A stretch of DNA of 64,000 nt from Aminivibrio pyruvatiphilus (GCF_004366815.1 NZ_SORI01000009.1:1-64000), one strand, 5' to 3'; counted from the first letter of the stretch, positions 11,242 to 52,051 are shown. Program-made: numbers and translations. Notes: generated by a model not told the origin, from the sequence alone.

Positions 11242-11285
11242 CAAGGACATTCCTCCGATGCATATCTGCAAAGGAGGATTTTTTT

Positions 11286-28979: not shown

Positions 28980-28987
28980 TTGCTTGC

Positions 28988-29061
28988 TGGCTGGGGAACC
29001 TGGATTCGAACCAAGATTACCTGATCCAGAGTCAGGCGTCCTGCCATTGGACGATTCCCCA
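28988..29061 (-). tRNA. tRNA-Gln (anticodon CTG)
   Basis: 74 nt including an encoded CCA (28988-28990). Acceptor TGGGGAA/TTCCCCA, anticodon loop CTCTGGA between CCTGA and TCAGG, T arm GGTTCGAATCC. Anticodon CTG gives Gln. First tRNA of the pair. Confidence 0.95.
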
Positions 29062-34076: not shown

Positions 34077-35327
34077 TTATAAGGCCTGCCGGACCCATCG
34101 CCCCATTACTCTGTCGGCTTCCGCGAGGACGAGCCATAATTCCTGGATTGCGTTTATCAGCTCCGTCCTGCTTTTCTGGTCAGCTTCCTGCGCGGTGATC
34201 AGGTCAAGCTGGGATCCCAGCCCTTCGCGGTACATCATCTCGGCGATCTCCAGCTCCTTGTCGGCCCGTTCGGCCTGACGGCGGCGGATGGCGACGATTT
34301 CGAGCGCCCGCCCCCATCGTTCGCGGACAAGATCAGCTTCCCGCTTCAGGCTGTCGCGCCTCGCCTCCAGTTCGTACCCGGCCTTTTTGAGCAGCGACTC
34401 AGCCGCCCCGGTTTTGTTGGCCGTCTTCCCCCCGTCCGTCAGGGGAACTGTCAGCACGGCGCGGACGAAGACCTCACCGCCCCGCTCCATGGAGGAATTG
34501 AGGTCTTCCAGAACCCGCAGCCCCAAGGAGAGATCCACGAAGGGAGACAGCCCCTTCGCGGCGAGGGAGCGCTGCACCGAGGCCCGTTCCCTGGAGAGCA
34601 TCAGCGAGGCGACGTCGGGGCGGCTCTCCCATGCCTTCGTCTCGTCCACGGCGGGACTCAGCTTCTCGAGTTGGGGGAACATGGTCTCCGGCGTTACCGG
34701 AACTCCCCCTGCGAGAGCGCTCATCTCGACGAGCTGCTGTTCGTACTTCTGGCGGGCCTGGAGGAGGAACGCCTCGCCGTCGTCAACCTGCGACTGAGCC
34801 CGCAGCAGCTCCAGAAGGGAGACAAGCTCCTTGTCGAATTTCTCGCGGGTGATGAGCAGCGATTCGCGGCGTTTCGCCACGATCTGTTCCATGGCCTCCC
34901 GGTTCAGCGCCGCCATCACCGCCCTGCGGTAGGCGGACGCTGCGAGGGCGAGCCGTTCATTGACCGCGTCGGCGTACTGGTTCCGGAGAATCTCGACTCC
35001 GAGGAGAAGCTCCCGCTCCTGGAGTCCGTAGCTTCCCGAGAGGTTAACGCGGTGCGAGAGGGAGAGGTCGATCTGCTGATCGCCCCGCTCCTGGTCGAGC
35101 CACTTGCTTGCCTCGGCGGAGAGCCCGAGCGAGGGGCGCTGAACGGAAAGTTCCGCCCGGGCGGAGAAAAGCCTCGCATCGATCTCCTGCCTTACGGCGG
35201 CGAGGTCGTTGTTTCGCTCCATCACGAGGGCCAGGTACTGAGCCTCCGAAAGCGGCGCGGAGAAGGCCGTCAAGGGAAAGAGAAAAAGAAAAGCAGGCAG
35301 TGCGGCGAAGAACATGCTAAATTTCAT
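34077..35327 (-). CDS. TolC-family outer-membrane efflux protein
   Basis: 416 residues with a signal peptide (residues 1-23, ending TAFSA) and the TolC/OEP architecture: two copies of an alpha-helical plus beta-strand repeat (coiled coils near 95-190 and 300-410). It would form the outer-membrane channel of a tripartite exporter. It is separated by about 15 kb of RiPP genes from the HlyD/ABC exporter genes but is the nearest outer-membrane component. Starts at ATG 35327 after AAGGAGG. Confidence 0.85.
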   Translation of the reverse strand: MKFSMFFAALPAFLFLFPLTAFSAPLSEAQYLALVMERNNDLAAVRQEIDARLFSARAELSVQRPSLGLSAEASKWLDQERGDQQIDLSLSHRVNLSGSYGLQERELLLGVEILRNQYADAVNERLALAASAYRRAVMAALNREAMEQIVAKRRESLLITREKFDKELVSLLELLRAQSQVDDGEAFLLQARQKYEQQLVEMSALAGGVPVTPETMFPQLEKLSPAVDETKAWESRPDVASLMLSRERASVQRSLAAKGLSPFVDLSLGLRVLEDLNSSMERGGEVFVRAVLTVPLTDGGKTANKTGAAESLLKKAGYELEARRDSLKREADLVRERWGRALEIVAIRRRQAERADKELEIAEMMYREGLGSQLDLITAQEADQKSRTELINAIQELWLVLAEADRVMGRWVRQAL

Positions 35328-35387: not shown

Positions 35388-35471
35388 TCTTTGTGGGAGC
35401 ACTGAATCCATAGGGTTCACAAAAACATCTCTTTGTGTGAGCACTGAATCCATAGGGGTCACAAAAACATC
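35388..35471. repeat. Tandem 42-nt direct repeat upstream of tolC
   Basis: Two head-to-tail copies, 35388-35429 and 35430-35471, each including GCACTGAATCCATAGGG and TCACAAAAACATC, with only a few mismatches. It lies upstream of the minus-strand tolC gene and on the plus-strand side facing the RiPP operon. No similar repeat is seen elsewhere in the window. Confidence 0.7.
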
Positions 35472-36184: not shown

Positions 36185-36457
36185 ATGACGATTGACGGGG
36201 CAAAAGCATTGGCTGCAAAGGTTTTAACCGATGAAGGCCTGGCGAAGCAACTGGGGGAAGCGAAAACCGAAGCGGAATTTAATGCGGTTGTTGCAAAGTT
36301 GGGGTACACCTGCACAGCGGCGGAGTTCGAGGCTGCCTTCAAGGAGGCGCAGGAAAACACACCGCTCAGCGACGAGCAGCTGGATCAGGCTTCCGGGGGC
36401 CTGAGCATCGTCGGCGTGGATTACGCCTTTACTGCGGTACAGACATCCAAATTGTAG
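36185..36457 (+). CDS. Nif11-type RiPP precursor peptide
   Basis: 90 residues: a Nif11-like leader (about 1-72; helical, Ala/Glu/Lys-rich, with AEFNAVVAKLGYTCTAAEFEAAF typical of the family) ends in LDQASGG, a double-glycine cleavage site for a C39 peptidase. The predicted core is the 18 residues LSIVGVDYAFTAVQTSKL. It has no Cys, His, Trp or Pro, so lanthionine or thiazole chemistry is unlikely, and rich aliphatic and aromatic side chains are available for carbon methylation or cross-linking. AAAGGAG lies 9 nt before ATG 36185. A hairpin follows before the enzyme genes. Confidence 0.9.
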   Translation: MTIDGAKALAAKVLTDEGLAKQLGEAKTEAEFNAVVAKLGYTCTAAEFEAAFKEAQENTPLSDEQLDQASGGLSIVGVDYAFTAVQTSKL

Positions 36458-36485
36458 CGAAGGGGTTTTCTCCTTCCAGGTTAAT

Positions 36486-36523
36486 GAAAACGGAGACTGG
36501 ATAACCATCCAGCCTCCGTTTTC
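36486..36523 (+). terminator. Long hairpin after the precursor gene (partial terminator)
   Basis: Arms of 10 and 6 bp (36486-36495, 36497-36502 with 36507-36512, 36514-36523) interrupted by one A/C mismatch, loop AACC. The 3' arm ends GTTTTC, a short T tract. Only 17 nt before the start of the first radical-SAM gene. It could stabilise or partly terminate the message so that more precursor than enzyme is made. Confidence 0.55.
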
Positions 36524-36539
36524 AGGTGGAGGCGAACAC

Positions 36540-38291
36540 GTGGATCTGCTGCTGATTAAAACACACCGCTACGTCAGCGGGTACATTCCCGGAAGCAACC
36601 TGGGAATGAATATATTGATACAGCTGCTGACACGACAAGGGTATACGGCACGGATGTATCAGGGCTATGCAAAAGAAGCCCTGAACTACGTGAGAGCGAT
36701 CATGGACAGCGAGGACCGGCCGAAAGTCATCGGCTTTTACTGTGATTTTGACAATGTTCACTGGGTGAAGATCCTTGCACGGGAAGTGAAAAACGGGTAC
36801 CCCGGTGTAATTCTGCTGGCAGGCGGCCCTCAGGCCGTCGACATGGACGCCTGGTTTTTGAAGGACACGGGCATTGCTGCCGCCTGCATCGGCGAAGGGG
36901 AAGAAACGGTTCCGGAACTCATGGAGTATTTCATTCATAACCGCGGTGCCCTGGAGGCGATTCAGGGAATAGTGTTTCTGGATGCCTCCTCGAACTTTGT
37001 TGCCACATCCCCGAGAACCCCGCCGGAGGCGCTGGATGATATCCCATGGCCTGACATCACCCTGACCAGCGATTATAAACACTACGCCCTTCTCCCCATT
37101 TTAACCGGACGGGGCTGCCCTTTCGGATGTACTTTCTGTTATGAAGGGGCCAATGCCAAACGGGTCCGCCGTCACTCGGTTTCCTCGCTGATGAAGGAAA
37201 TCAGGGCGAATTTTCAACGCAATCCGGACATAAAATATATTAATTTTCTCGATGACACCTTTACGCTGGATTCTCAACGGGTCGACCGGATTTGCGAAGA
37301 GATCAGGGAAATCAGGAAAGAGTATGATTTCGTCTGGTTTGCCAGCGCCCATATTTCTCTTATCGACAGGCACCGGGCCATGGCCCGGAATCTTGCGGAG
37401 TCCGGGCTCAAAAAAATCTTTTTCGGCCTGGAATCCGGCAGTGATGCTGTTTTAAAAAGCTACAACAAGAAAATAACGCGGAAGATGGCAGTGGACGTCA
37501 TTGAACATTGCGTTGAATCGGGGATTCACGCAATTTCCGGCAACATTATCCTGGGGGGACCCCACGAAACCCGGGAAACCGTCCAGGAGTCCGAAGATCT
37601 GATCATGGAACTGCTGTATAAGGCCCCCGGTCAGTTCGAAACCGCCTACTTCTCATTTCTCCCCTTTCCCCAGACCCCGATCACGCTGAATCCCCAAAAA
37701 TTCGGAATGGAAATTTATGAGGACCTCATCGACTGCTGCAATGAAGATATTCCCCTTTCCGGAACCGCTGCACTGGATTTTCTGGAGCTGACACAGATTC
37801 GGCTTGAGGCCAACAGGCGGCTCCAGTATGAAATGCGGAAGATCTATCTCGAAGGAAGAATTCCCGAAGCGGTGATTCTGGATGCGTACCGTTACGGCGG
37901 TCAATACGGAGTGTTCACCCGCTGGAACGATTATGTGTACAAGAATCTGCCCATTGATGACGCCTACTGGAAAATGCGCGTTTTCGGCGGGTATGTGCCC
38001 GGCAGCCAACTGGGATCACGCGGGGAAGACGCCATTCCGCACCGGACCTTCGAGTTGTGGCTCCATACAGACGTCAGCGGAGAAAAACCGCAGATTGCCG
38101 ATATCCCCCTGGAGACAATGGATTTCACCCTTCTCACGTTGTGCAGCGGAAAACTTTCAAAACGGGAAGTGCTTCAGCAGGGAAAAACGGCGCTGGATCC
38201 TTCGGGGTGCCGGCCTGATTTCTACAGACAGGCAGAAGAATCGCTGAATGCCATGGAAAAAAACAAGTGGATACTCTACCAGAAGCCATGA
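36540..38291 (+). CDS. Cobalamin-binding radical-SAM RiPP maturation enzyme, module 1
   Basis: 583 residues, matching the family of ribosomal-peptide-maturation radical-SAM proteins with an amino-terminal B12-like domain. B12-type domain at about 1-150 with CDFDN (68-72), AGGPQ (94-98) and GEGEE (118-122). Radical-SAM domain at about 185-400 with [4Fe-4S] ligands C193-x3-C197-x2-C200 and YEGANAKRVRR following. A carboxy-terminal part (about 470-583) contains FELW and an alpha/beta segment like a small winged helix. Starts with GTG 36540 after GGAGG. The first enzyme gene after the precursor. Confidence 0.88.
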   Translation: MDLLLIKTHRYVSGYIPGSNLGMNILIQLLTRQGYTARMYQGYAKEALNYVRAIMDSEDRPKVIGFYCDFDNVHWVKILAREVKNGYPGVILLAGGPQAVDMDAWFLKDTGIAAACIGEGEETVPELMEYFIHNRGALEAIQGIVFLDASSNFVATSPRTPPEALDDIPWPDITLTSDYKHYALLPILTGRGCPFGCTFCYEGANAKRVRRHSVSSLMKEIRANFQRNPDIKYINFLDDTFTLDSQRVDRICEEIREIRKEYDFVWFASAHISLIDRHRAMARNLAESGLKKIFFGLESGSDAVLKSYNKKITRKMAVDVIEHCVESGIHAISGNIILGGPHETRETVQESEDLIMELLYKAPGQFETAYFSFLPFPQTPITLNPQKFGMEIYEDLIDCCNEDIPLSGTAALDFLELTQIRLEANRRLQYEMRKIYLEGRIPEAVILDAYRYGGQYGVFTRWNDYVYKNLPIDDAYWKMRVFGGYVPGSQLGSRGEDAIPHRTFELWLHTDVSGEKPQIADIPLETMDFTLLTLCSGKLSKREVLQQGKTALDPSGCRPDFYRQAEESLNAMEKNKWILYQKP

Positions 38292-39976
38292 GAGAAAACC
38301 CAATCGTTTTGCTGGTGTACACCCAACGGATGGTCATTGGGCGAACCTTTGAAATGATCGGGAATCTGGGGATATTGACACTGGCGGCCCAGCTCAACGC
38401 CAACGGCTTCGACGCAAAAGCCTGTACCGGCATCACCACCGATGTGGCAAAAACCATCGGACGAAGAAAAGACCAACTGTTTGCAGTCTGTTTTTACTGT
38501 GACTTCGATAATCAGACGGCTGTTGCGGCCATCATCAAGGATCTGAAAAAAGACGCCGGGAATGCTTTTTATGTGGTCCTGGGCGGACCGCAAACCCTGC
38601 ATATGACGGAAAGGGATCTGGAAACCTACGGCGCCGATGCCATCATCAAGGGGGAGGGAGAAGAATCCCTGCTCGCCTGGCTTAAAGCGAGGAGCGGGGG
38701 AGAAGAAATCTCCGTGCCGGGGGAAATCCTTCCCCATGAGAATCCGGAGTACATATACCTGGACGATTTCTCACAGTACCCTCTGCCTCAGGATGAAGCG
38801 GTGCTGGAGTATGCCGAAAGGCCCCTGATGTCCGTGATTACCGCCAGGGGGTGTCCGTACAGATGCGCGTTCTGCTTCGAAGGGGGCAATTCAAAAAATT
38901 TGCGAATGCGCTCCGCGGAGCATGTGCTGTTCGAAATCGAAACACGGCTGCAGAAAAGCCGGAGACCCCGCTACCTTTTTTTTTGCGACGATACTTTTAC
39001 CGCCAATCCCCGGAGGCTGAAAGAGCTGCTTGAAGGATTGAGGCGCCTTCGGAAAAGCCATGATTTTGTCTGGTTCTGCGAAGGGCATCCGGGATTTCTT
39101 TCAAAACGCCCGGAGTTGATCAGGGAAATGATGGAGAGCGGCATGGTCCGGATGCAGATCGGTCTGGAGTCCGGAGCTGATTCCGTCCTTCAGGCCTACG
39201 GGAAACAGGCCGGCCCGGAAGACGTGAGGAACGTGGTGGATATCTGCTGCCGGGAGGGACTGCCCCAGCTCGCCGGAAATTTCATTATCGGCGGAGCCTT
39301 TGAAACCCCGGAAACGCTCGAGGAAACCACCCGCTTCGCCCTTGACCTGCTCGAGGCTGCCCCGGGGATGCTGGATCTATCCACCACCTTTCTGACGCCG
39401 CTGCCGGGTACCCGGATCTGCAATGATCCCGGGCAATTCGGTATTGCCATGGAAGACCGGGACTGCCTCACCTCCCTGGAGGACTTTCCGGTGAACCGCA
39501 CGGGGGAGTTATCCCTGCCGGAAATCTGCAGGGCGCGCTCCGTCTTTCTCACCCGCATTTCGAACGCCATGAAAGAGCAGTACGCGAGCGGGCGGATTCC
39601 GGCGGGGCGGATCCGGCGCGACTTCGAGCTGGCCTTTCGATACGGCATTGCGGCAGGATACCTGAAGTTTCTTTACGGCCGGAACCCGGTCACGGTGAGC
39701 TACTATCGAAACCTCACCGGGTACCGGGGGCTTCTGAAGGAATGGCATGAGCTTGAAGCGTCCGAAAAGGAAAGGTTTGTCATCCAGCGCGTTCCGGATT
39801 TTTCACTGGTGGATTTCACAGCCTTGAGCGATATGGAAACGGATATTCTTCTGGATGCCGGTGTGTATTCGGTGAAGGAGACGGCGGAGAAGCTGGCCGT
39901 TTCGGCGGAGAAACTGGCTGTCTGTCTTGAAGGAATGAGCCGGCGTCACCTGGTGTTATTCTCACCCTGCCCCTGA
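38288..39976 (+). CDS. Cobalamin-binding radical-SAM RiPP maturation enzyme, module 2
   Basis: 562 residues, same architecture: CDFDN (71-75), GGPQ (99-102), KGEGEE near 121-126, then C189-x3-C193-x2-C196 and FEGGNSKNLR. The carboxy-terminal region is divergent; instead of FELW it has a Leu/Ala-rich repeat (KLAVSAEKLAV near 533-543). The ATG at 38288 overlaps the stop of module 1 (ATGA), so the two are translationally coupled; a GTG 21 nt earlier is less likely. Confidence 0.85.
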   Translation: MRENPIVLLVYTQRMVIGRTFEMIGNLGILTLAAQLNANGFDAKACTGITTDVAKTIGRRKDQLFAVCFYCDFDNQTAVAAIIKDLKKDAGNAFYVVLGGPQTLHMTERDLETYGADAIIKGEGEESLLAWLKARSGGEEISVPGEILPHENPEYIYLDDFSQYPLPQDEAVLEYAERPLMSVITARGCPYRCAFCFEGGNSKNLRMRSAEHVLFEIETRLQKSRRPRYLFFCDDTFTANPRRLKELLEGLRRLRKSHDFVWFCEGHPGFLSKRPELIREMMESGMVRMQIGLESGADSVLQAYGKQAGPEDVRNVVDICCREGLPQLAGNFIIGGAFETPETLEETTRFALDLLEAAPGMLDLSTTFLTPLPGTRICNDPGQFGIAMEDRDCLTSLEDFPVNRTGELSLPEICRARSVFLTRISNAMKEQYASGRIPAGRIRRDFELAFRYGIAAGYLKFLYGRNPVTVSYYRNLTGYRGLLKEWHELEASEKERFVIQRVPDFSLVDFTALSDMETDILLDAGVYSVKETAEKLAVSAEKLAVCLEGMSRRHLVLFSPCP

Positions 39977-40101
39977 GGCACCGCAAACAGGGGGTTATTG
40001 CAGACAATATCTGAAGATGCGGGTGATCCTGTTGATCGCCGGGGTGATTTCGTGAAGCCACGGCAGCAGGTATGCATAAAAATAAAACGTGGAGGCGCGG
40101 T

Positions 40102-43100
40102 GTGAAAACGTTCAACCTGAGACTGATGCTGATCCATCGCGGAACGAGAACCCATTCGATCACACAGATCGAGCCTATCGGTCTTATGTCGCTGGCGGAG
40201 ATGATGACCGGCCAGGGGATTGAAACGGCCGTTTTTTCAGGAGAGCTGCTGAAAGGGCTGGAATTCCTGAACGCAGCGGGCTGCAGCCGGGATACGGTAG
40301 TGGGATTATACTGTGATTACGAGAATCAGTCGGCGGTCGAGAGTTTTTCCAGGGTGATCAAGGAGCGCTTCGGTGCCGTCGTTCTCGTCGGCGGCCCTCA
40401 GACCGTGGGGCAGGGAGAAGAATTTCTGCGGGCAAGCCGGGCTGACGGGATCATGCGGGGCGAAGGGGAGTACTCACTGCACGCCGCCCTCCGCGCACTG
40501 GAAGAAGACCGGAGGGACCTGTGGGAGACCATCCCCGGGATGTGTTCGTTCACCAAGGACGGAGCATACTTCGACAACGGGATCTACCCGGTCATCGAGG
40601 ACCTGGACGCCATCCCCGGCATTTCGGGAACCATCAGATCGGCCCAGCACCGGGGCATCAATCATATGGCGGTGATGACAGGGCGTGGCTGTCCTTTCCA
40701 CTGCTCTTTCTGTTATGAGGGGGCCAACAGCAAAAACGTCCGGCAGCGCAGCGTGGCGGGTGTCATGAAGGAGATCCGGTGCCGCCTGCGGGAGAATCCC
40801 AACGTGAAGTATCTCTTTTTTTGCGACGACACCTTCACCCTGAACAGGGAACGGGTGCGCGCCTTTTGCGAAGAGCTGAAAGAGCTGCGGAAGGAGCACG
40901 ATTTCGTCTGGTTCGCCGACGCCCATGTCAACGTCGTCATCAACCACCCCGATATCGTGAAGATGATGGTGGACGCCGGCCTGGTCCGGATGCAGATCGG
41001 CATTGAAAGCTGCAGCCAGCCCATCATCGACATCTACAACAAGAACGTGAAACGGGAAGGCTTTTTTGAAGTCATCGAGATCTGCAAAGCGGCCGGACTT
41101 CCCCAGCTTGTGGGCAACATCATCATCGGCGGCGCCCTGGAAACCCGGGAAACGCTCACATATACGTTCGACACCGTCTATGAAATGATACGCGCAGGCA
41201 GGGGGATGGTGGAAGTGGTCAGCACCTTCTACATGCCCTTCCCGGAAACGGCGATGTCGAGGGACCCCGAAAGATTCGGCGTTATCGTGAAAGACGGGAA
41301 GGCGCTCACCTCGGTGGGAGATTTCCCTGTGATAGAGACGAAGTCCCTGGGCATCGAAGAAATCTGCGCGGCCCGGAACGAATTTTTTGAAGGGACGACC
41401 GGAGTTATGCGGAAAATGTTCCGCGACGGCGAAATCCCCGACGAGACCGTCCTGCAAAGTTACGCGCTGAGTGAACGCTACGGTCTCAGCGGTATGTGGC
41501 AGAGCCTGGCGTACGCCCGATACCCCTATTTCGACGCCCAGTACAAGGCCCGGATTCGGGGAGACAAGCTCACCAGGGACTATGACGACACCGCCGTGTT
41601 CGATACCCACCCGCAGCGGCTCTTTCTGCTTTCGCTGACGCCCGCCCTCTCGGCGGAAATTCCGGCCCTCAATGGATTTGTCTTTTCTCCCTTTGAATTT
41701 GAAGTCCTGACATACACGTCCGGCAAGCTGACCATGCTTGAAATGGCGGAAGCGCTTTACCCCGGATATCAAATGAACTTCGGGAGTTTTGAAGCGTTCT
41801 CTCTGCACCTGCTGGAAACCGTCAAAAAACTGGAAGCGGCGGGAATGTGCGTGCTGTCCGGCCCGTTGAAGCCGAAAGCAGCCGATCGGGAATGGAAAAA
41901 TCAAAAACACTCAGAGGAGCCCCCCGTGAAAAATAAGGTCATACTGTTCAAACTATCGACCATGGGCATGCAGATAGCCGGTTACAGCCGGAGCGGAGCA
42001 TTCCTGGGGATCTACGGGCTGGCAGGCTATCTGGAGGAAAAAGGGTATGATGCCGTGGCCTGCGAATGCCGGCCTGATGAGGTCATGGAGTACCTCCGGC
42101 GCATTCCCTTCGGGGAAATCTGCTGCGTCGGCTTCTCGGCGGACTTCGAGAACAGGCATGCAGTCAAAAAGGCCTGCGCCGCCATTGCGGAGTCCTGCGG
42201 GATTCCGGTGCTGATCGGCGGCCCCGAATCCATCGCCCTGGATGAAGAGTACCTTCGCCGGTCAAAGGCAACCGCCATTGTTCGGGGCGAAGGCGAACTG
42301 GCCATGGCGGCGGTGCTGGATGCCCTGCAGGAGAACAGGAGCCTGGACGGTATTCCCGGGATTTTCTATATCGGCGAAAAAGGGGAGTGCATCGACAGGG
42401 GCGAAGGACCGGCGGTGGAAAACCTGGATGAGCTGCCCTTCCCCGCCTATGACAAAAGCATGACCCCCATAGACTGCTCCAACCTGTACATCATGACCAG
42501 CCGGGGGTGCCCCTTCCACTGCGCTTTCTGTCATGAAGGCGCCCTCAAACGCCCCATGCGGCAGCGAAGCGTAGCGAATGTCATTGCGGAAATGCGCCAT
42601 TTCCTTTTGAAATATCCTGAACTCACGTACTTCAGTTTCTGCGACGATACGCTGGTCACCAATCCCGCGTGGCTGGACGAATTTTGCCGGGAGGTAAAGG
42701 CCCTTCAGGTCCTCAGACCCTTCCGGTTCTACTGCGAGGCCGATGTGGCCTCCCTGAGCAGGCGTCCGGAGGTCATAAAGGATATGGTGGACGCTGGTCT
42801 CAACCGGCTGCAAATCGGCATTGAAACTGTCGACCGGGAGATGCTGAAGATTTACCGCAAAAACATCACGCCGGAAATGGTGGAAATTGTGGTGAAAGCC
42901 GCTTACGATGCCGGAGTGCAGCAGGTTTTCGGGGCCCTTCTGGTGGGCGGCCCCTTTGAAAACCGTGAGCATATCGAGAAGAACAAAGCCTTCGGCGCAA
43001 AGCTGCTGCGGCTCGGACCGGGGATGATGGAAATATCCCCCAGTATCGTGATGCCCTACCCGATGACCGACATCGGACAGCACCCCGAAAAATACGGCCT

Positions 43101-43692
43101 GAAGATCACTGACAGGCAGGGGTTGGCCTGCAACTCCGATTACCCGCTCCTGGAGAGCGAAACCATGAACAGGCGGGAGATCATGGCGGCGTACCAGGAG
43201 TACCTTCAGAGCTTTGTGGACGAAGTGAAGAAAATGCTCGATACAGGCGAACTGGGTCATGAGGACATCCTGGGCTGTTTCCGCTCATCCCTGAATTCCA
43301 GGGGGCCCAAATACTGGAGCAACATCATAGCCCATCATAAACCCGCTCTGACCCCCTATTACACCATGCTGGCCAGGGACGCCGCCAGCCGCATAGTGGA
43401 CGTGAAGCCGGAGGAGCTGCCCGAGTGGCGCCCGCAGCGGCTCCTCGAAATGTGGCGCGATGTGGACTTCTCCAGGGGCTATCCCCTTGTGAGGGGCGAG
43501 GCGCTGTCGCCTTTTGAGTACGAGGTGCTGAAATACTCCACAGGAAAGAGCACCATCGCCGCCATAACCCGGATCCTCCATGACCGGTTCGGAAAACCGT
43601 TCGGGGAAACGGAGGAAGAGCTGATGGCGCGAATCATTGAAACCCTGAAGGCCCTTGATGCAAAATACTGGCTGCTCGTGGTTCCGTACTAG
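40102..43692 (+). CDS. Fusion of two cobalamin-binding radical-SAM RiPP enzymes (modules 3 and 4)
   Basis: A 1,196-codon ORF containing two full copies of the enzyme. The first half has CDYEN near 71-75 and C197-x3-C201-x2-C204; the second half has SADFEN and C803-x3-C807-x2-C810. Each half ends in a region like the carboxy-terminal part of its relatives. An internal GTG at 41926 with AGAGGAG 6 nt upstream begins the second copy in the same frame, where a separate gene would start. I place the main start at GTG 40102 (GGAGG 6 nt upstream); an ATG at 40072 with a poor site is also possible. Either a natural fusion or recent loss of a stop codon. Confidence 0.82.
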   Translation: MKTFNLRLMLIHRGTRTHSITQIEPIGLMSLAEMMTGQGIETAVFSGELLKGLEFLNAAGCSRDTVVGLYCDYENQSAVESFSRVIKERFGAVVLVGGPQTVGQGEEFLRASRADGIMRGEGEYSLHAALRALEEDRRDLWETIPGMCSFTKDGAYFDNGIYPVIEDLDAIPGISGTIRSAQHRGINHMAVMTGRGCPFHCSFCYEGANSKNVRQRSVAGVMKEIRCRLRENPNVKYLFFCDDTFTLNRERVRAFCEELKELRKEHDFVWFADAHVNVVINHPDIVKMMVDAGLVRMQIGIESCSQPIIDIYNKNVKREGFFEVIEICKAAGLPQLVGNIIIGGALETRETLTYTFDTVYEMIRAGRGMVEVVSTFYMPFPETAMSRDPERFGVIVKDGKALTSVGDFPVIETKSLGIEEICAARNEFFEGTTGVMRKMFRDGEIPDETVLQSYALSERYGLSGMWQSLAYARYPYFDAQYKARIRGDKLTRDYDDTAVFDTHPQRLFLLSLTPALSAEIPALNGFVFSPFEFEVLTYTSGKLTMLEMAEALYPGYQMNFGSFEAFSLHLLETVKKLEAAGMCVLSGPLKPKAADREWKNQKHSEEPPVKNKVILFKLSTMGMQIAGYSRSGAFLGIYGLAGYLEEKGYDAVACECRPDEVMEYLRRIPFGEICCVGFSADFENRHAVKKACAAIAESCGIPVLIGGPESIALDEEYLRRSKATAIVRGEGELAMAAVLDALQENRSLDGIPGIFYIGEKGECIDRGEGPAVENLDELPFPAYDKSMTPIDCSNLYIMTSRGCPFHCAFCHEGALKRPMRQRSVANVIAEMRHFLLKYPELTYFSFCDDTLVTNPAWLDEFCREVKALQVLRPFRFYCEADVASLSRRPEVIKDMVDAGLNRLQIGIETVDREMLKIYRKNITPEMVEIVVKAAYDAGVQQVFGALLVGGPFENREHIEKNKAFGAKLLRLGPGMMEISPSIVMPYPMTDIGQHPEKYGLKITDRQGLACNSDYPLLESETMNRREIMAAYQEYLQSFVDEVKKMLDTGELGHEDILGCFRSSLNSRGPKYWSNIIAHHKPALTPYYTMLARDAASRIVDVKPEELPEWRPQRLLEMWRDVDFSRGYPLVRGEALSPFEYEVLKYSTGKSTIAAITRILHDRFGKPFGETEEELMARIIETLKALDAKYWLLVVPY
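41913..41928 (+). promoter_or_regulatory. Internal ribosome-binding site and GTG start within the fused radical-SAM gene
   Basis: AGAGGAG (41913-41919), 6-nt spacer, GTG (41926-41928), in frame with the long ORF. The residues that follow (VKNKVILFKL) align with the amino termini of the stand-alone paralogues. Could allow separate production of a 588-residue second enzyme. Confidence 0.6.
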
Positions 43693-43705
43693 AAAAGGTG
43701 ACGGG

Positions 43706-45418
43706 ATGAAGATTCTTCTCTGCAACGTATCGAAAAAGTACGATACCAGCACCCATGATTATGTGGGGCTCTTTTACCTGGCGGGCGCCCTGGAAGAGGC
43801 CGGTTTTGAACCTGTGGTCTTTCATGGAAAACCGGAGCATCTCCTGGACGAGATAGAAAAGAACGGGCCCCGGGCAGTGGGTTTTTCCTGTGATTTCGAC
43901 AATGTCCGGATCATCGAAGACCTGTCCCTGAAGATAAAGGAACGCTGGAATATCCCCATTATTGTGGGGGGCCCCCAGGGCATTGCCCTGGGGAGGGAGT
44001 TTCTTGAAAGCAGCGGTGCGGATTTTATCCTGCGGGGCGAAGGAGAGGTCTCGCTGCCCAGGCTTCTCAATGCGGTCCTGAAGGATGAAGGCGATGTCGG
44101 CGAGGTGAAGGGACTGGCGGGAATCAGAGACGGGGTCTTTATGGAAACCCCTCCTGAGATCATCGCCGATCTGGATACCCTGCCGCTGCCGGCCTACCAT
44201 ACGTCGCTGCACAAAGACCGCGCCTACGGAAATTTGATTTTTACCGGCCGGGGCTGCCCCTACCGGTGTGCCTACTGCGCCCCCAGCCCCGGAAAGCAGA
44301 AGGTCCGGCTGAGAAGCATCCCCCTTGTGCTGAAGGAAATCAAAACCAACCTGCACAACAACCCCGGACTGCGCTGCCTGATTATCATGGACGACACCTT
44401 TACCCTCAGCCGGGAGCGGATACAAGCCTTCTGCGAAGGGATGAGGGAGCTGCGGAAAGAACGGGATCTGGTCTGGTACTGTGAATGTCATGTGGGGCAC
44501 ATCAAAACCTTTATGGATATCCTGCCGGAGATGATCGATGCCGGCCTGATCCGTCTGCAGATCGGGATAGAATCCGGGGACCAGAATGTCATCGACCAGT
44601 ACAACAAGCACGTCAGAATCGACGACATCGTTGAATTTGTAACCTATGCCGCCGGCTGCGGCCTTGCCCAGATCGCCACGAACTTCATTGTGGGGGGGCC
44701 GGCGGAAAAAGACGGGGCGACCGCCTCGCTGATCCGGACCCTGATCGACCGGGCCCCCGGAGTCATCGATATCATTACCGGTTTTTTGCGGGCCTACCCG
44801 GGAACTGACATCTCGGAGCATCCGGAGAAATTCGGCTTGCAGCTCCATGACGCCTCCGGCCGCCGGACCGGGGACGACTACCCCTTCGTAACGCCGGTCG
44901 GATGCAGCCAGGTTGAGGTGATGCACCATCGCCAGGCACTCAACAAAGAGATCCGCCGCAGCATGCAGCAGAAAATCAAAAAACGCGAACTGAAGCAGGA
45001 AGCGGTGAGAAAGCAGTTCGAAGCCGCATTCAAATACGGAATCCGAAGCCGGTGGTTCGCGGAGATTTCAGCCAATCCCAGAGCCTATGAATATTACTAT
45101 GTGCTGTTTTTGAACGAGGGACAGCCCTTCGAGGAATCCCTGGATTTTTCCCGGGATTATCCCCAGCGGACTTTTGAATTATGGCGTGCCATGACGTTTT
45201 CGGAAGGATTTCCCCAGCTGGACGGCACGGCGCTCTCGCCGCTGGAGTATGAGCTGTTGTTGCGGTGCGCAGGTAAAAGAAGCCTCGGGACCATTGAGAA
45301 TGAACTGTATGGATTGTTTGGTGCCCCGTACGAGGACCAACGGGAATTTCACGCAATGCTGCTCGGCATGCTCGGTACATTCGATTCCAGGTATTGGCTG
45401 ACTCATTTCGTGGTGTAG
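43706..45418 (+). CDS. Cobalamin-binding radical-SAM RiPP maturation enzyme, module 5
   Basis: 570 residues: CDFDN (62-66), VGGPQ (87-91), GEGEV near 111-115, then C184-x3-C188-x2-C191. The residues after the cluster motif are APSPGKQKVR instead of the YEGANAK type, marking it as the most divergent active site. The carboxy-terminal third has QRTFELWRAMTF and then LSPLEYELLLRCAGKRS..., a small winged-helix-like region ending DSRYWLTHFVV. AAGGTG lies 6 nt before ATG 43706, which is 13 nt after the fused gene. Confidence 0.86.
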   Translation: MKILLCNVSKKYDTSTHDYVGLFYLAGALEEAGFEPVVFHGKPEHLLDEIEKNGPRAVGFSCDFDNVRIIEDLSLKIKERWNIPIIVGGPQGIALGREFLESSGADFILRGEGEVSLPRLLNAVLKDEGDVGEVKGLAGIRDGVFMETPPEIIADLDTLPLPAYHTSLHKDRAYGNLIFTGRGCPYRCAYCAPSPGKQKVRLRSIPLVLKEIKTNLHNNPGLRCLIIMDDTFTLSRERIQAFCEGMRELRKERDLVWYCECHVGHIKTFMDILPEMIDAGLIRLQIGIESGDQNVIDQYNKHVRIDDIVEFVTYAAGCGLAQIATNFIVGGPAEKDGATASLIRTLIDRAPGVIDIITGFLRAYPGTDISEHPEKFGLQLHDASGRRTGDDYPFVTPVGCSQVEVMHHRQALNKEIRRSMQQKIKKRELKQEAVRKQFEAAFKYGIRSRWFAEISANPRAYEYYYVLFLNEGQPFEESLDFSRDYPQRTFELWRAMTFSEGFPQLDGTALSPLEYELLLRCAGKRSLGTIENELYGLFGAPYEDQREFHAMLLGMLGTFDSRYWLTHFVV

Positions 45419-45555
45419 CCGGAAAAACGGGGAGCCGGAGGGGCCCCCGCTCCGGCCGCGGAAGAGGTATGCCCGGGCATAGGGGTAGAAGCATATCCAG
45501 CATTCAGTAACAGCCGGGCACGCCCCTGTTCTCCGGGAGGCAGCGAACGGGGGCT
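45419..45555. repeat. Convergent intergenic region with hairpin and palindrome
   Basis: Between the converging RiPP enzyme and exporter operons. A hairpin with 7-bp arms at 45434-45440 and 45450-45456 (9-nt loop) and a perfect 14-base palindrome TATGCCCGGGCATA at 45468-45481. Probably the shared transcription-end region, though no T tract is clear. Confidence 0.45.
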
Positions 45556-48420
45556 CTACACCGTCTGCCTGCGGACCAGCTCTGCGAAGAGGCCGTTTTT
45601 CGCCATCAGCTCGCCGTACTTCCCCTCTTCGACAAGCCGCCCGTCCTCCAGAACGCAGATCCTGTCCGCTCCGATGATCGTTGAGAGGCGGTGGGCCACC
45701 ACGATGCGCGTCGCCTGGATACCCTCCAGGCTGCGGCTGATCATCGCCTGCGTCCTGTTGTCGAGGGCGCTCGTGGCCTCGTCGAAGATCAGCACCCGCG
45801 GCTTTCCGGCAATGGCCCGTGCCACGAGAAGGCGCTGCTTCTGCCCTCCGGAGACCGTGTTCGCCCCGTCGGTGATGACGGTGTGGATCCCCATGGGCAT
45901 CGCGGCGATGTCCTCCTCCATTCCGGCCATCCGGAGCGCCTCGTCTATCTGCTCCACCGACAGGCTGCGCGAACAGCGGATGTTGGATGCGATATCGCCC
46001 GAAAGCAGCCCTCCGCCCTGGAGGACCACGCCGATCTGCCGGCGGAGTTTCCCCAGGTCCAGCTCGGTGATGTCCCTGCTGTCGTAGAATACTCCTCCCG
46101 ATTCCGGCTGGTCGAAGCCCAGAAGAAGCCGGATGAGCGTGGACTTCCCGGCCCCCGACGGCCCCACGATCGCCACGAACTCCCCCGGCTCGATGTGGAG
46201 GTCCAGCCCCTTCAACACCGGGGGGCCGTCCTTGAGGTACCGGAAAACGACCTGTTCCAGGTCGATCTTCCCCGAAATCTCCCCGGGATCGGTCTTGAGG
46301 TCGCCCGCCTCCGGTTCTGCCCGGAGAATGGGCGCGAGGTTCTCGACGAGGGGAAGCATGTTCATCGTGGCGGTAAAGGAGCTCACGATCTGGAAGAAAG
46401 CCGCCTGGAGCGCTCCGAAAGCCGACCAGAAGGCCATGAATTGTCCCGTGTTGTAGATGCCGTCCGCGGCGCTCCAGCGGACGAGGGCGTAGAGGACCGC
46501 GATGGCGACGGAGAGCGGGAAGAGCGCCAGTACGGTATTCAGAAAAACCTCGAGCTTTCTTGCTTTCGTCCCGAGCATCCGCTGTGCACCGAAAAGCTCG
46601 GCCCACCGGGCGAAGGACCGCTCCTCGGCCCCCGCTACCCGTATCTTCGAGATGCCGGTCATGATCTGGAAGGTGAGTGCCAGCAGGCGGTTCTGCAGGC
46701 CGGTCATCCTGCGCTGGAAGCGGAGCTGAACGAGATTCACCGCCACCATGAGCACCGCGGGGACGAGAAGGCACCCAAGGCCGGCGAGGGCCAGCTTCCA
46801 GTCGTACCAGAACGACTGCCCCAGGAAGAATACCAGGAAGACGCTCTGCACGAGGAATGTCTTCACCGTCCTCGACGCCGTCTCCCGGAGAGCGAAGAGG
46901 CCGAGCGCCCGGTTGGCGAGGTCGCCGGAGGTCGTCTTCCGGAAGAAGCCCACCGGCAGGCGCAGGATGCGGTCCCAGAGCCCGGTTGCGACGTCGTGGT
47001 CCAGCACTGTCTCCGAACGGAGAAAGGCGATGCCGTTGGCGTAGTGCAGCAGCCCCGAGGAAACCGCCACCGAAACCAGAATTGCGAAGAGCTGGAGCAT
47101 GCGTCCCCGCTCGGCATGGGGAATCACCTCGCCGAATATCTGGCGGTTGACTTCGGGGGAGACCAGCCCGAGAAGGGCGAGGGCGACCGAGACGACGAAG
47201 ACGAAGCCGAGGTCCTTCTTTGTTCCCTCAAGGCCGAAGCGGAGCAGGTCCATCCCTCCCAGCGGGGAGCCGGGAAGAGGACGATAGATCTGCACCGCGC
47301 CCGGTGCGAGAGTTCCGGCGATTGCCTCGTCGACTGCCCGCTCTCCGTCGTCGTCCGCGATGCGGTATCCGCGGCTCGTGGGCAACAGGGCAACCGGCGT
47401 ACCGTCCCGGTACGCGATCAGGGGCGCTCCGTCGGAGAGCCACCACGGACCGGCGAGCGTCACCGTTCGATATTTGAGGTTCGAAGCCTGGGCGAGGTCG
47501 CGCAGCGATTCGTCTCCTCCCCCCTCTCCTCCCGGGGCGATTTTCCGGCCGAGGTATCCCGCCACGGTGGAAAAGGCCCTCCGGAGCGGAGAGTCCTCCC
47601 GCCGCGCAGCCCCATCCTCGCGGAGTTTTCCCGAGAGGGCGGACGCAAGGGTCGAGAGGGCCGTGGAAATGGCCCGCCTGCTCGACATCTGCATCTGCCG
47701 GAGTGCGCCGAGGTCGTCCGCGGCCCGAAGCCTGGCGTTCATGGCGAGGGAGGAGAAAACCATCTCGCAGAAGGCGTCGAAGACGGACGGGAATTCGCCC
47801 CCGCGAATCAGGTCCTCCGTGGATCGCCCATGCACGGTGCAGGATTCCAGCGGAACGATCCAGCAGTTCGGCGGAAGGGCGAAGGGCGTTCCTCCCGGCG
47901 AGAGGTCTTCGGTACCGACGAAGAGGGCTCTCCCCTCGACGATCTCTCCCCAGAGAAGCTCGTCCGTTCCCGCCGGCTTGTTGGCTTCGAGGGCCCCTCT
48001 CTCTCCGCCTATCTTCTGCCGCACCTTCGGCAGAGGCACGATGTCCTTGACGATGCCCCGGCCCAGCCCCTCGAGAAATTTGTCGACCAGGGAGGCCGTG
48101 AAGGCGATTCCCTGCCCTTCAGTCCCTTCGAGCAGCTTCGACCGGGCGATTCGAAGGACCTTCGTTCCCGGAATTCCTCCGGCGAGAAGCCCCATGGTAT
48201 CGCCGAAAAATCCCCTTTCAACGCCGAAGAGGGCCTCTCCTGCCTCCATGGTGAAGAGGTAATCCCGCCCGCCGGTCTGAAGGGCGCCGTCCCGGGCGGT
48301 GACGTAGACGTCTACCTGGCCGGCGAGGACGCACCAGACGGTCTCCGGATCGTCGAGGAAGAACGGCGTTTTTCCGGTGATCTCAAGTTCTGTGCCATGG
48401 AGGGCAAGCTCTTCGAACAT
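45556..48420 (-). CDS. NHLM-type bacteriocin ABC transporter, permease/ATPase with amino-terminal sensor-like domain
   Basis: 954 residues. The amino-terminal 400 or so are soluble, with a cyclic-nucleotide-binding-like fold near 1-110 (the class of the second NHLM transporter, without a peptidase). Membrane domain of about six helices (about 415-700), then an ABC domain with Walker A GPSGAGKST, signature VSGGQKQR and Walker B LIFDEATSAL. It forms an exporter with the C39 ABC protein and the HlyD protein. ATG 48420 has AAGGA 8 nt upstream; an upstream in-frame ATG at 48429 lacks spacing. Confidence 0.88.
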   Translation of the reverse strand: MFEELALHGTELEITGKTPFFLDDPETVWCVLAGQVDVYVTARDGALQTGGRDYLFTMEAGEALFGVERGFFGDTMGLLAGGIPGTKVLRIARSKLLEGTEGQGIAFTASLVDKFLEGLGRGIVKDIVPLPKVRQKIGGERGALEANKPAGTDELLWGEIVEGRALFVGTEDLSPGGTPFALPPNCWIVPLESCTVHGRSTEDLIRGGEFPSVFDAFCEMVFSSLAMNARLRAADDLGALRQMQMSSRRAISTALSTLASALSGKLREDGAARREDSPLRRAFSTVAGYLGRKIAPGGEGGGDESLRDLAQASNLKYRTVTLAGPWWLSDGAPLIAYRDGTPVALLPTSRGYRIADDDGERAVDEAIAGTLAPGAVQIYRPLPGSPLGGMDLLRFGLEGTKKDLGFVFVVSVALALLGLVSPEVNRQIFGEVIPHAERGRMLQLFAILVSVAVSSGLLHYANGIAFLRSETVLDHDVATGLWDRILRLPVGFFRKTTSGDLANRALGLFALRETASRTVKTFLVQSVFLVFFLGQSFWYDWKLALAGLGCLLVPAVLMVAVNLVQLRFQRRMTGLQNRLLALTFQIMTGISKIRVAGAEERSFARWAELFGAQRMLGTKARKLEVFLNTVLALFPLSVAIAVLYALVRWSAADGIYNTGQFMAFWSAFGALQAAFFQIVSSFTATMNMLPLVENLAPILRAEPEAGDLKTDPGEISGKIDLEQVVFRYLKDGPPVLKGLDLHIEPGEFVAIVGPSGAGKSTLIRLLLGFDQPESGGVFYDSRDITELDLGKLRRQIGVVLQGGGLLSGDIASNIRCSRSLSVEQIDEALRMAGMEEDIAAMPMGIHTVITDGANTVSGGQKQRLLVARAIAGKPRVLIFDEATSALDNRTQAMISRSLEGIQATRIVVAHRLSTIIGADRICVLEDGRLVEEGKYGELMAKNGLFAELVRRQTV

Positions 48421-48534
48421 GGGGTTCATCCTTCCCTGGCGATCCGAAGCATTCCGCGGCAGGAACCGGAACAGCCCGCCGTGCCCGCCGGCTGTCGGCA
48501 TGCACTGCTTCCTCCGGTACCGGCGGCAGAAATC

Positions 48535-50763
48535 TCAGTTCTCGATAAGACCGGCATAGCGTCCTCCAAGCCGCATCAGTTCCTCGTGAGTTCCCCGCTC
48601 CGCAACCTTTCCCTGGTGGAGCACGATGATCTCGTCGCAGTCGCGGATGGTCGAAAGGCGGTGAGCCACGATGAGGCAGGTGCACCCCCGGCGGCGGAGC
48701 GCACGGTCGATAGCCTCCTCGGTGGGCGCGTCCAGGGCGCTTGTGGCTTCATCGAGCACTATCAGCGACGGGGAGCGGACGAGCGCCCTGGCGATCTCCA
48801 GGCGCTGGCGCTGTCCGCCGCTGAAGTTGCGTCCGTTTTCCTCCACGATGGCGTCGTATCCTCCCTGGCGCGCGACCACGTCGCGGTGGATGCAGGCGTC
48901 ACGGCAGGCCGCCACGAGCTGCTCCGTCGGTATCGACGGGTCCCAGAGGGAGAGGTTGTCGCGGATCGTTCCCTCGTAAAGGGATATCTCCTGGTCCACG
49001 AAGGAGAAGGATGTGGCCATCTCCTCCCGGGAAATTGACCCCAGGGGACGGCCGTCCAGCAGAATCTCACCCGTCCACGGCTCGAAGAGGCCGCAGGCGA
49101 TGCGGGCCAGAGTGGACTTGCCCGAGCCGGATCCTCCCACAAGGGCCACCCGGGAGCCGGGAACGAGCGTCAGCGAAAAGTCACCGATCAGCGGATCGGA
49201 AAGCCGCGAATAGCCGAAGGAGATGTTCTTCATCTCCAGGCGCCCCGAGAGACGGACCTTGCGCCCTCCGGACATGGCGCCGTCTTCAAGTGCGGGGCGC
49301 TCGGCCATCCGCGGGTAGCGAAGCACGTCGTCGAGACGGTTCAGGTTCCCCTGCGCGGTCTGGAAGGAGTCCCAGAGGGTCACCAGCTCGGTTACCGGAT
49401 TGATCGTCTGCTGCATCAGTGTCTGCAGCGCGAGCAGCATGCCCATGGTGAGCACACCGTTCATTACGCGGAAGCCGCCGAAGCAGAGCACTCCTGCGGC
49501 AGCCAGCGAGGTAAGGGCGGGAAGCACCGACTGGGTGCGGACGGCCAGGCGGGAGAGTCCGGCGCGGCAGTCCGCTATCTTGCTGAGCGAGCCGGCCAGG
49601 CGGGCGAACTGCTCTTCCTCGCCCCCGAAGGACTTGATGGTCTCAATGACCGCGAGCCCGCCGATGGCGGCCCCTGCGAATTTCCCCACCTCGCCGGTGA
49701 AGCGCTCGTTCAGGTCCGTCCGCCTGCGGTTCACCGAGACGATCAGCAGAGCGCACGTCACCGCCGTCAAAAGGGCGATCACCGAAACGGGCGGGTCGTA
49801 CAGGGTGATCATCACCGCGTAGAAGAGCACCATGACGCATTGGAGCATGGTCGTCGCAAGCTCCCGCGAGAGGAGCTGCGCGACGCGGTCGTTCAGCTGC
49901 ACGCGGTTGCCGATCTCCCCGGCGTAGCGCTGAAGAAAGAAGGTGTACGGAAGTTTCAGGAGGTGATGCACGAAGGATGCCGAGTCGCGGATGGCCATCG
50001 AGAGCTCCTGCCGGAGGAGCACCGACCCCTGCAGCCATGTCAGCGCGCCCTTGACGAGTGCGATGGCCGCCATAAGGGTGAGCATGGGGCGGAACCACTC
50101 GAACCGGCCCTCCACAAGAAGACGGTCGACGAAGATCTGCTGGAACGCGGGCTCCATCAACCCCGGAACGACCAGGGCCAGCCCCGCAAGAACGGCGAAG
50201 AAGAGGGCCGCTTTCGCCCCGGCCAGCCTTCTGCCGAGGGCCGCCCATGGACTCCGGCGGCGGCCTGCCGGGCGGAACTGCTCCCCCGGCACTATGGATA
50301 TGGCGATCCCCGTGAACGACCGGTCCAGCGTCTCCCGGTCCACGGTGCGGGGGCCGGATGCAGGATCGTTGAGATAGACCGTACCGCCCTTGATGCCCTC
50401 GAGCACCAGGAAATGGTTGAAGTTCCAGAAGAGAATGAGCGGCAGCGGCAGATCGAAAAGACCCTGAGGCTCCTTCCGGAAACCCGAAGCCTCCATTCCG
50501 TGGCTCCGCGCGGCCTTGAGCAGGTTCGTCGCTTTGCTGCCGTCCCGGCTGACGCCGCATTCCTCCCGAAGCGTCTCCAGGGGCAAAAAGAGGCCGTAGT
50601 ACCCAAGAACAATCCCCAGTGAGGCGGCACCGCACTCGGTGGCCTCCATCTGGATCATCGTCGGTGTCGAGACGCGGCGGTTCTTCCATAAGGGGAATTG
50701 TCCCGAAGGGGCAAGGGAAGACTCCCTGGGGGGCGGCGTCTTCATGACGGGGCGATCAGGCAT
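48535..50763 (-). CDS. NHLM-type bacteriocin ABC transporter with C39 leader peptidase
   Basis: 742 residues: C39 protease (about 30-165) with Q38, catalytic C44 in MEATECGAASL, H117 in NFNHFLVLEG and D133; a six-helix membrane domain (about 185-470); an ABC domain with GGSGSGKST and FSGGQRQRLE. It should cleave the Nif11 leader after Gly-Gly and export the core. The start overlaps the hlyD stop by 8 nt, with GGAGGGAAGG upstream of ATG 50763. Confidence 0.92.
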   Translation of the reverse strand: MPDRPVMKTPPPRESSLAPSGQFPLWKNRRVSTPTMIQMEATECGAASLGIVLGYYGLFLPLETLREECGVSRDGSKATNLLKAARSHGMEASGFRKEPQGLFDLPLPLILFWNFNHFLVLEGIKGGTVYLNDPASGPRTVDRETLDRSFTGIAISIVPGEQFRPAGRRRSPWAALGRRLAGAKAALFFAVLAGLALVVPGLMEPAFQQIFVDRLLVEGRFEWFRPMLTLMAAIALVKGALTWLQGSVLLRQELSMAIRDSASFVHHLLKLPYTFFLQRYAGEIGNRVQLNDRVAQLLSRELATTMLQCVMVLFYAVMITLYDPPVSVIALLTAVTCALLIVSVNRRRTDLNERFTGEVGKFAGAAIGGLAVIETIKSFGGEEEQFARLAGSLSKIADCRAGLSRLAVRTQSVLPALTSLAAAGVLCFGGFRVMNGVLTMGMLLALQTLMQQTINPVTELVTLWDSFQTAQGNLNRLDDVLRYPRMAERPALEDGAMSGGRKVRLSGRLEMKNISFGYSRLSDPLIGDFSLTLVPGSRVALVGGSGSGKSTLARIACGLFEPWTGEILLDGRPLGSISREEMATSFSFVDQEISLYEGTIRDNLSLWDPSIPTEQLVAACRDACIHRDVVARQGGYDAIVEENGRNFSGGQRQRLEIARALVRSPSLIVLDEATSALDAPTEEAIDRALRRRGCTCLIVAHRLSTIRDCDEIIVLHQGKVAERGTHEELMRLGGRYAGLIEN

Positions 50764-52051
50764 CGCCCTTCCCTCCGCCGATTTCTTCTCCGATCCCGAG
50801 GAAGAACTTCTTCAGAAAGGGAAGGACCAGTGTCACCGGGGCCTGCCGCCTGACCACGACAGTCACGCCGCAGAGGGTGCCGCTCTGCAGGACTACGGGG
50901 GGGCCGTCGCCCGACGACCACACGTATCCGCTCTCCGTCTCTTCAGAGGGATAGAGAGCCATCATCACGGTGATGGGGGAGCCTCCCCGGGAGAGGGTCT
51001 GCACAAGCTGTTCGTTGCCCAGGACACGGGTCATTCCTCTCGCCGAAGCCGGAAACGAGGAGACGTTCGTCACCTTTCCGCGCAGGACGCCGAACTCTTC
51101 CTGCTTCACCACGGAAGGGGAGATCTGCGCCTCCATCCCGGACAGGATTTTCTTTCCGTCCTGGGGCTGGACGAAGGCGTGCACGTAGAGAGGCGCCCCG
51201 TCGCCGAGCGATTTCTCCACGGAGAGAAGCGCCTCCCCTGCGGATATGACCTGGCCTTCCGACTTGAAGACCTCGAGCACCCGCCCTGCGGCAGGACTGC
51301 GAACGGCCGTCTCCAGGTCATATCGTTCTTCGAGAGCGGCGAGCTGCTTTTCTGCGGTCAGAAGGCGCATGTCCACGTCGATCCTCTGCCGTTCGATCTG
51401 CGAGGTCGAGTCGGCCGCCGTCATCGGAAGGCGGGCAAGCTCCTCGTTGAACGAGAGGATCTCCTGCAGCACGGCGTTGTAGCGGTCCTTCACCTCGAGA
51501 TACTGGGAACGGGTGATGTACTTTTTCGCGTAGAGGGCATCGTACTGCTCCAGCTGCTCACGCAGCGAGGATGCACGGTCCCGGGCGACCTTGATGGAGG
51601 AATTCAGCGCCTGCCTGCGCCGCGCGAGGTACTCCGACTCCAGGACTTTCTTGCTGTCTCCCATCTCCGTCCCCATGGTCCGTTCGGTCTTAAGGATCTC
51701 CACCCGGCCGCGCAGCTCGGTGATCTGGTGCCGCAACTCCATCTGGGCCAGCCGCGCAATGACCTGGTCCTTCTCGACGGGGTCGTCGATATCGACGTAG
51801 ATGGCTTCGAGACGGCCGTTCCCCGGTGAGGGAGCGTCCGCATGCGCACCGAGGCGCAGCAGAATGCCCTGCCCGGAAACCAGCGTGGTCACCGTACCGT
51901 AGAAGCCCCATGCCGCCAGTACCCCCAGCAGCAGCAGCAGTGCTGACAGCGCCGCCCACGTCGCGGGGCGGACGACCTGAAAGAGCATGTCGAGCTGTTC
52001 GGGCGAGGAGAGCCTGTCGAGTGCGGACTGGCGGAATATCTGTTTTTTCAC
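50756..52051 (-). CDS. NHLM-type HlyD family secretion protein
   Basis: 431 residues: short cytoplasmic start, one transmembrane helix (about 32-55), then a periplasmic adaptor with a long coiled coil (about 105-230) flanked by lipoyl and beta-barrel halves. It links the inner-membrane ABC transporters to an outer-membrane channel, probably the TolC-type protein at 34.1-35.3 kb. GTG start at 52051 with AAGGAG 11 nt upstream. First gene of the exporter operon. Confidence 0.88.
   Translation of the reverse strand: MKKQIFRQSALDRLSSPEQLDMLFQVVRPATWAALSALLLLLGVLAAWGFYGTVTTLVSGQGILLRLGAHADAPSPGNGRLEAIYVDIDDPVEKDQVIARLAQMELRHQITELRGRVEILKTERTMGTEMGDSKKVLESEYLARRRQALNSSIKVARDRASSLREQLEQYDALYAKKYITRSQYLEVKDRYNAVLQEILSFNEELARLPMTAADSTSQIERQRIDVDMRLLTAEKQLAALEERYDLETAVRSPAAGRVLEVFKSEGQVISAGEALLSVEKSLGDGAPLYVHAFVQPQDGKKILSGMEAQISPSVVKQEEFGVLRGKVTNVSSFPASARGMTRVLGNEQLVQTLSRGGSPITVMMALYPSEETESGYVWSSGDGPPVVLQSGTLCGVTVVVRRQAPVTLVLPFLKKFFLGIGEEIGGGKGDA

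Follow-up and report, generated by a model that had tools for sequence, protein, structure and literature searches.

What does a bacterium make with a single short peptide precursor and five radical S-adenosylmethionine (SAM) modules of the cobalamin (B12)-dependent type? The question is raised by positions 36,185 to 52,051 of a 64,000-nucleotide stretch of Aminivibrio pyruvatiphilus DNA (GCF_004366815.1, NZ_SORI01000009.1:1-64000; hereafter the window), where a Nif11-leader precursor gene is directly followed by four genes holding the five modules and an exporter operon lies on the opposite strand. The locus is probably a pathway for a ribosomally synthesized and post-translationally modified peptide (RiPP), in which one conserved product is modified at several carbon positions, cut after a Gly-Gly site and exported. 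The RiPP logic suggested by a first-pass annotation of this DNA was supported by the present analysis; in particular, the precursor, the five modules serving this one precursor and the exporter on the other strand were all found where that annotation had placed them.

The Precursor Peptide

36185-36457, + strand: Nif11-leader precursor gene (TIGR03798 and PF07862 matches; orthologs)
36185-36400, + strand: leader segment, 72 amino acids, C-terminal end ...LSDEQLDQASGG
36401-36454, + strand: core segment, 18 residues, LSIVGVDYAFTAVQTSKL

The precursor, a peptide of 90 amino acids whose gene has a ribosome-binding site (RBS) ahead of the start, scores 43.2 bits against TIGR03798 (cut-off 32.3), which together with the Gly-Gly site places it among the Nif11-like leaders, and 38.2 against the Pfam Nif11 model PF07862 (cut-off 23.8). 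The Nif11 leader, the Gly-Gly cleavage site at its end and the 18-residue core were all part of the first reading and they stand; the mismatch to leader models named there as a ground for rejection was not seen. A search of the whole genome returned this precursor as the sole Nif11 match. Without modification, the calculated monoisotopic mass is 1911.04 Da for the 18-residue core and 1082.56 Da for its first ten residues.

The Radical-SAM Modules and Their C-Terminal Domains

36540-38291, + strand: rS1, B12-binding, radical SAM and C-terminal winged-helix-like domain (38007-38288)
38267-39976, + strand: rS2, B12-binding-like and radical SAM; short divergent C-terminal domain (39749-39973)
40072-43692, + strand: rS3, two fused modules, rS3N (about 40072-41925) and rS3C (about 41926-43689)
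41578-41880 (rS3N) and 43399-43689 (rS3C), + strand: C-terminal domains of rS3
43706-45418, + strand: rS4, B12-binding, radical SAM and RiPP recognition element (RRE)-like domain (45137-45415)

The open reading frame of rS4 spans 43655-45418, and the ATG at 43706 is favoured by the orthologs. The CxxxCxxC motif is intact in all five modules, the Pfam Radical_SAM model is passed by all four genes and the Pfam B12-binding model by three of them, rS2 being slightly under the cut-off (28.6 versus 32.1); pairwise identity among the modules is 25–33%. The only module folded whole, rS4, gave an AlphaFold2 model with a mean predicted local distance difference test score (pLDDT) of 91, whose nearest structures in the Protein Data Bank (PDB) are MgmA (a Gln C-methylase; E 1.4e-20), AprD4, TokK and CysS; TokK, CysS, TsrM and OxsB all fall within the top 20. 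Class 1 of the cobalamin-dependent radical-SAM enzymes is defined by TokK, TsrM and OxsB (PMC13331322). The architecture of this class, with a Rossmann B12-binding domain at the N-terminus and a CxxxCxxC radical-SAM domain behind it, is found here by Pfam, by the motif and in the rS4 model, and the modules are predicted to be class-1-like cobalamin radical-SAM enzymes.

The first-pass annotation was right in calling these enzymes B12-type radical SAM, and its assignment to the ribosomal-peptide-maturation radical-SAM family has to be dropped, since against TIGR03975 (rSAM_ocin_1) they score 83, 30, 130 (two modules) and 66 bits with a cut-off of 281.85. The scores for the ApyD family NF050148 are 62–205 bits against a cut-off of 750; ApyD is also the best NCBIfam match of rS4, far under that cut-off at 106 bits. 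HpnJ, PhpK and the other listed NCBIfam B12-radical-SAM families were likewise rejected, all scores being under cut-off.

Every module terminates in a domain of about 75–100 residues, short and divergent in the rS2 copy. The PqqD fold, or RRE, is composed of a small beta sheet and three helices and binds the leader. The C-terminal domain of rS3C, modelled from a 50-sequence alignment (pLDDT 96), gave a Foldseek list rich in RREs, with PqqD, lasso-peptide B1 proteins, TruD and ThcOx, at probabilities up to 0.91 but with no E below 0.001. By sequence, the domain matches PqqD best among PDB entries (E 0.51, not significant alone); it is called RRE-like here, as a candidate RRE. In Wallbacteria, an 889-aa radical-SAM protein (L055:7211-9880) has a second C-terminal RRE-like domain after a remnant module without the radical-SAM motif.

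Distribution and Conservation of the Core

The fused rS3 protein was scanned against one genome per species in 84,980 species. The matches are Synergistaceae metagenome-assembled genomes (MAGs) at 83–86% identity; many Acetobacterium genomes and MAGs, Sporomusa malonica, Candidatus Formimonas warabiya and a Thermoclostridium MAG at 72–78%; and a Candidatus Wallbacteria contig at 32%. Carriers are anaerobic and span three phyla, Synergistota, Bacillota and Wallbacteria. The nearest relatives, the Synergistaceae MAGs, agree with the Synergistota host proposed at first, and they hold the precursor and five modules of the architecture that was to be looked for in other Synergistota. The precursor and all five modules occur together at every locus with enough surrounding sequence, in the order precursor-rS1-rS2-rS3-rS4 in Synergistaceae and rS3-rS4-precursor-rS1-rS2 in Bacillota; since the same gene set recurs in other phyla, the cluster is not due to chance.

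In the module tree, a quick tree with long branches whose exact placements are provisional, the modules form five one-to-one orthologous groups, each with 100% support in the Shimodaira-Hasegawa-like approximate likelihood ratio test, and a Wallbacteria module is placed beside each of the five (support 87–99%), with one extra beside rS1. In Wallbacteria the halves of rS3 are separate genes and a partial rS3N-like gene lies at the contig edge, which brings the number of modules per precursor there to at least seven. Single-module relatives from Selenomonadaceae and other Synergistota make up a separate branch, and the stretches around them contain no Nif11 precursor of the cluster's type.

The cluster is nearly universal in Acetobacterium (18 of 40 genomes of the family match, 17 with the double-module protein, all within the first 19 listed), while close full or nearly full fused-rS3 copies are present in 5 of 188 Synergistota genomes, with a 54% relative in one more, and the core pattern in 1 of 301 Negativicutes. 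The RpoB identity between the window and the Bacillota carriers is 53–64% in the aligned stretches, lower than the 72–78% of rS3, and horizontal transfer of the unit between phyla is therefore most likely. Carriage by a mobile element was rejected: plasmids and phages gave no match, and the core pattern was not found in viral contigs.

The first ten residues of the core read LS[I/L]VGVDY[A/T]F in all 24 orthologs, while the leaders have diverged and the genes around the cluster differ. Among 26 precursors, LSIVGVDYAF occurs in 20, LSIVGVDYTF in two and LSLVGVDYAF in two; the other two are paralogous second precursors of Acetobacterium-type loci with the decapeptides TSMIGFDYPF and ITLVGIDYPF, and even in these the G, D, Y and F are invariant. 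Six of the nine main orthologs compared with the window show no amino-acid change in core residues 1–10, and silent sites are near saturation in cross-phylum precursor pairs. Against most of the Bacillota orthologs compared, the proportion of nonsynonymous differences (pN) in core 1–10 is 0 and that of synonymous differences (pS) about 1; the leader pN of these pairs is 0.09–0.14. The last eight core residues are more variable than the leader. Invariant columns among the 24 orthologs number 8 of 10 in core 1–10 versus 21 of 71 in the leader (Fisher p 0.003), and the precursors of Thermoclostridium and Wallbacteria, a pair picked after the data had been seen, share 18 of 18 core residues and 33 of 72 leader residues (Fisher 8e-6). 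Other Nif11 precursors in the carrier genomes have similar leaders and unrelated cores.

The second precursors (L041:5991-6260 and L042:15362-15631) adjoin the main precursor and have the cores TSMIGFDYPFVMTPIVP and ITLVGIDYPFVMTPIVP. A genome of the same genus encodes three further Nif11 precursors close to the same exporter (L075:5280-5588; L076:3758-4198 and 6935-7210). Their hydrophobic cores are unrelated, and the window genome has none of the three.

The Exporter and the Flanking Genes

45556-48501, - strand: NHLM exporter ABC2 (permease/ATPase), TIGR03797, 795 bits (cut-off 709)
48535-50763, - strand: NHLM exporter ABC1 with C39 peptidase, TIGR03796, 983 bits (cut-off 853); PF03412
50756-52051, - strand: NHLM HlyD adaptor, TIGR03794, 303 bits (cut-off 156)

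All three subunits score over their NCBIfam cut-offs, and the HlyD, C39-ABC and ABC genes recognised in the first reading form a complete NHLM exporter. This adjoins the cluster in the window, in the genus-mate and in most Bacillota carriers; an ABC-2 type transporter is present instead at two Synergistaceae MAG loci, and no transporter was found within the stretch around the Thermoclostridium cluster. Somewhere in the genome, an NHLM C39 transporter is encoded in 10 of 11 carriers tested, the exception being an incomplete genome.

The flanks vary, including an IclR regulator, GGDEF proteins or a transposase, and the flanking families contain no immunity or regulator family common to the loci. 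Seven Acetobacterium-type loci have a lipoprotein-like Peripla_BP_6 protein within the operon, between rS2 and HlyD (e.g., L036:19513-20658), a substrate-binding protein that might bind the exported peptide. A TolC-like outer membrane efflux protein (34077-35327, -), encoded upstream of the cluster in the window on the opposite strand, might partner the NHLM exporter at the outer membrane. An imperfect direct repeat, agcactgaatccataggg(t/g)tcacaaaaacatc, lies at 35395-35470, also upstream of the cluster. In Candidatus Formimonas (L047:1-25326) the cluster and exporter are flanked by two rRNA operons.

Proposed Pathway and Alternative Explanations

In the proposed pathway the enzymes presumably bind the Nif11 leader through their RRE-like C-terminal domains. 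The five radical-SAM modules, which are paralogous and cobalamin-dependent, would each perform a separate task in altering the carbon skeleton of the core stepwise; cleavage after Gly-Gly would then fall to the C39 domain of the exporter, and the exporter complex would secrete the mature peptide. The likeliest chemistry would be C-methylation at several residues of LSIVGVDYAF...QT, because the characterised RiPP enzymes of the same kind considered here, PoyB/PoyC and BotRMT1-3 (PMC11285071) and ApyD (PMC10635010), are C-methyltransferases. Of the heavily carbon-modified peptide with perhaps multiple C-methylations envisaged at first, the RiPP frame is borne out and the C-methylation is kept as the most probable modification, in conditional terms.

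Several observations weigh against this pathway. The RRE fold matches have E values of 0.06–0.5, none below 0.001, and a methyltransferase entry tops the Foldseek list; several carriers have no NHLM exporter beside the enzymes; and no characterised product or enzyme activity was found in the open-licence literature. When Wallbacteria is left out, the invariant columns become 8 of 10 versus 35 of 71 (p 0.09) and, significance being lost, the statistical weight of the core–leader contrast rests on this divergent sequence. B12-radical-SAM enzymes also catalyse ring contraction, cyclisation and other reactions, and methylation is therefore only the majority expectation. A mainly non-methylating chemistry at the conserved DY-x-F and Val/Ile residues (C–C or C–O cross-links, ring formation or rearrangement) would suit both the structural closeness of the non-methylating radical-SAM enzymes OxsB and AprD4 to rS4 and the G, D, Y and F that do not change even in paralogous precursors; it appears unlikely, however, in view of the methylating activity of PoyB/PoyC, BotRMT1-3 and ApyD.

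The product could also be an ordinary narrow-spectrum bacteriocin, in line with the first-pass annotation ("bacteriocin-like") and the antiSMASH label on the Acetobacterium cluster (PMC6925170); the exporter would then confer immunity. The combination of a Nif11 leader and a C39/NHLM exporter agrees with this, as does the presence, in the same-genus genome, of further hydrophobic-core Nif11 precursors close to the same exporter; however, the core decapeptide is almost invariant across three phyla, unlike in the other Nif11 families considered here, and no immunity gene family is conserved in the flanks, so that a bacteriocin is not favoured and seems doubtful. Such a conserved core points to a fixed target or function (a signal, a metallophore, a cofactor-like molecule or one specific antibiotic) and not to a diversified bacteriocin, and the product probably has one specific job because the same gene set with an almost unchanged peptide is found in three phyla. 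Tentatively, and with the odds rather against it, the product may be a non-antibiotic conserved exported molecule of anaerobes, such as a metallophore, a signal or a cofactor similar to pyrroloquinoline quinone or mycofactocin, made by an unusually large number of distinct cobalamin radical-SAM modules that share one peptide substrate, and spread across phyla as a whole. A decaying or non-functional acquired cluster, which the patchy spread (5 of 188 Synergistota for close fused-rS3 copies, 1 of 301 Negativicutes) could suggest, is highly improbable, given the intact reading frames and motifs, the strongly restrained amino-acid change with silent sites near saturation and the near universality of the cluster in Acetobacterium.

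The Intergenic Element and the Transcription Layout

36458-36539, + strand: intergenic two-hairpin element, between the precursor and rS1, ahead of the rS1 RBS

The RBS of rS1 is directly behind this element, whose fold is more stable than that of shuffled sequence (z -3.9, and -3.2 to -5.8 in the five relatives folded); similar hairpins are present in Acetobacterium, Formimonas and Sporomusa, two-sided changes affect 6 of the 16 predicted pairs, and the Rfam search gave no match to it. The element probably determines how much precursor is made relative to the enzymes. A translational switch is possible in Acetobacterium, Sporomusa and Formimonas, as the RBS AAGGGGG there could alternatively pair with the 3' arm of hairpin 1 (CCCCTTC or similar). 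The precursor/enzyme and exporter operons converge and therefore do not share a transcript; the G+C content is 52–57% in the precursor and enzymes, 63–65% in the exporter and 61% in the window. A riboswitch ahead of the operon was rejected, as Rfam matched nothing close to the cluster in the window and a search of eight related loci gave no riboswitch; elsewhere in the window, Rfam matches are a thiamine pyrophosphate riboswitch (11140-11247, +) and two tRNA genes (28907-29061, -).

Comparison with Known Systems

The cluster is an uncharacterised Nif11 RiPP type whose B12-radical-SAM modules are unusually numerous and whose core is unusually fixed. The RRE-like domains, the cross-phylum distribution, the conserved core and the two-hairpin element go beyond the first-pass annotation. 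If the proposed pathway is true, a heavily edited peptide would be nearly fixed over Synergistota, Bacillota and Wallbacteria, and the named carriers, including Acetobacterium and Sporomusa malonica, would allow a search for the product and its role; five orthologous B12-radical-SAM enzymes with one short substrate would be a natural set for studying how sites on a peptide are divided among enzymes.

The Acetobacterium cluster was reported as a Nif11 "bacteriocin" by antiSMASH in four species (Esposito et al. 2019, PMC6925170) and is the same by gene content (Nif11 precursor, two radical-SAM, two B12-radical-SAM and HlyD); the passage on it there only lists it, without core conservation, module orthology or cross-phylum spread. 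The systems described by Haft, Basu and Mitchell in 2010 (PMC2887384) share the TIGR03798 leader and the TIGR03794/03796/03797 exporter; in these NHLP/Nif11 systems modification is due to thiazole/oxazole-modified microcin (TOMM) cyclodehydratases or lanthionine synthetases, in contrast to the B12-radical-SAM enzymes found here. ApyD, which beta-methylates Tyr in the RiPP aminopyruvatide, is a B12-radical-SAM enzyme with an RRE (PMC10635010) that acts on a RiPP precursor, as is predicted for the present modules with their RRE-like domains; the Apy system, however, has one such enzyme together with a P450 and an MNIO, and another precursor. Several radical-SAM C-methyltransferases per RiPP precursor, as predicted here, are known from bottromycin (BotRMT1-3) and polytheonamide (PoyB, PoyC) (PMC11285071), which have three and two, respectively, in comparison to five modules in the present cluster and seven or more in Wallbacteria. 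The bottromycin precursor has a C-terminal follower, and polytheonamide belongs to the proteusins; no epimerase or YcaO gene is seen in the present cluster.

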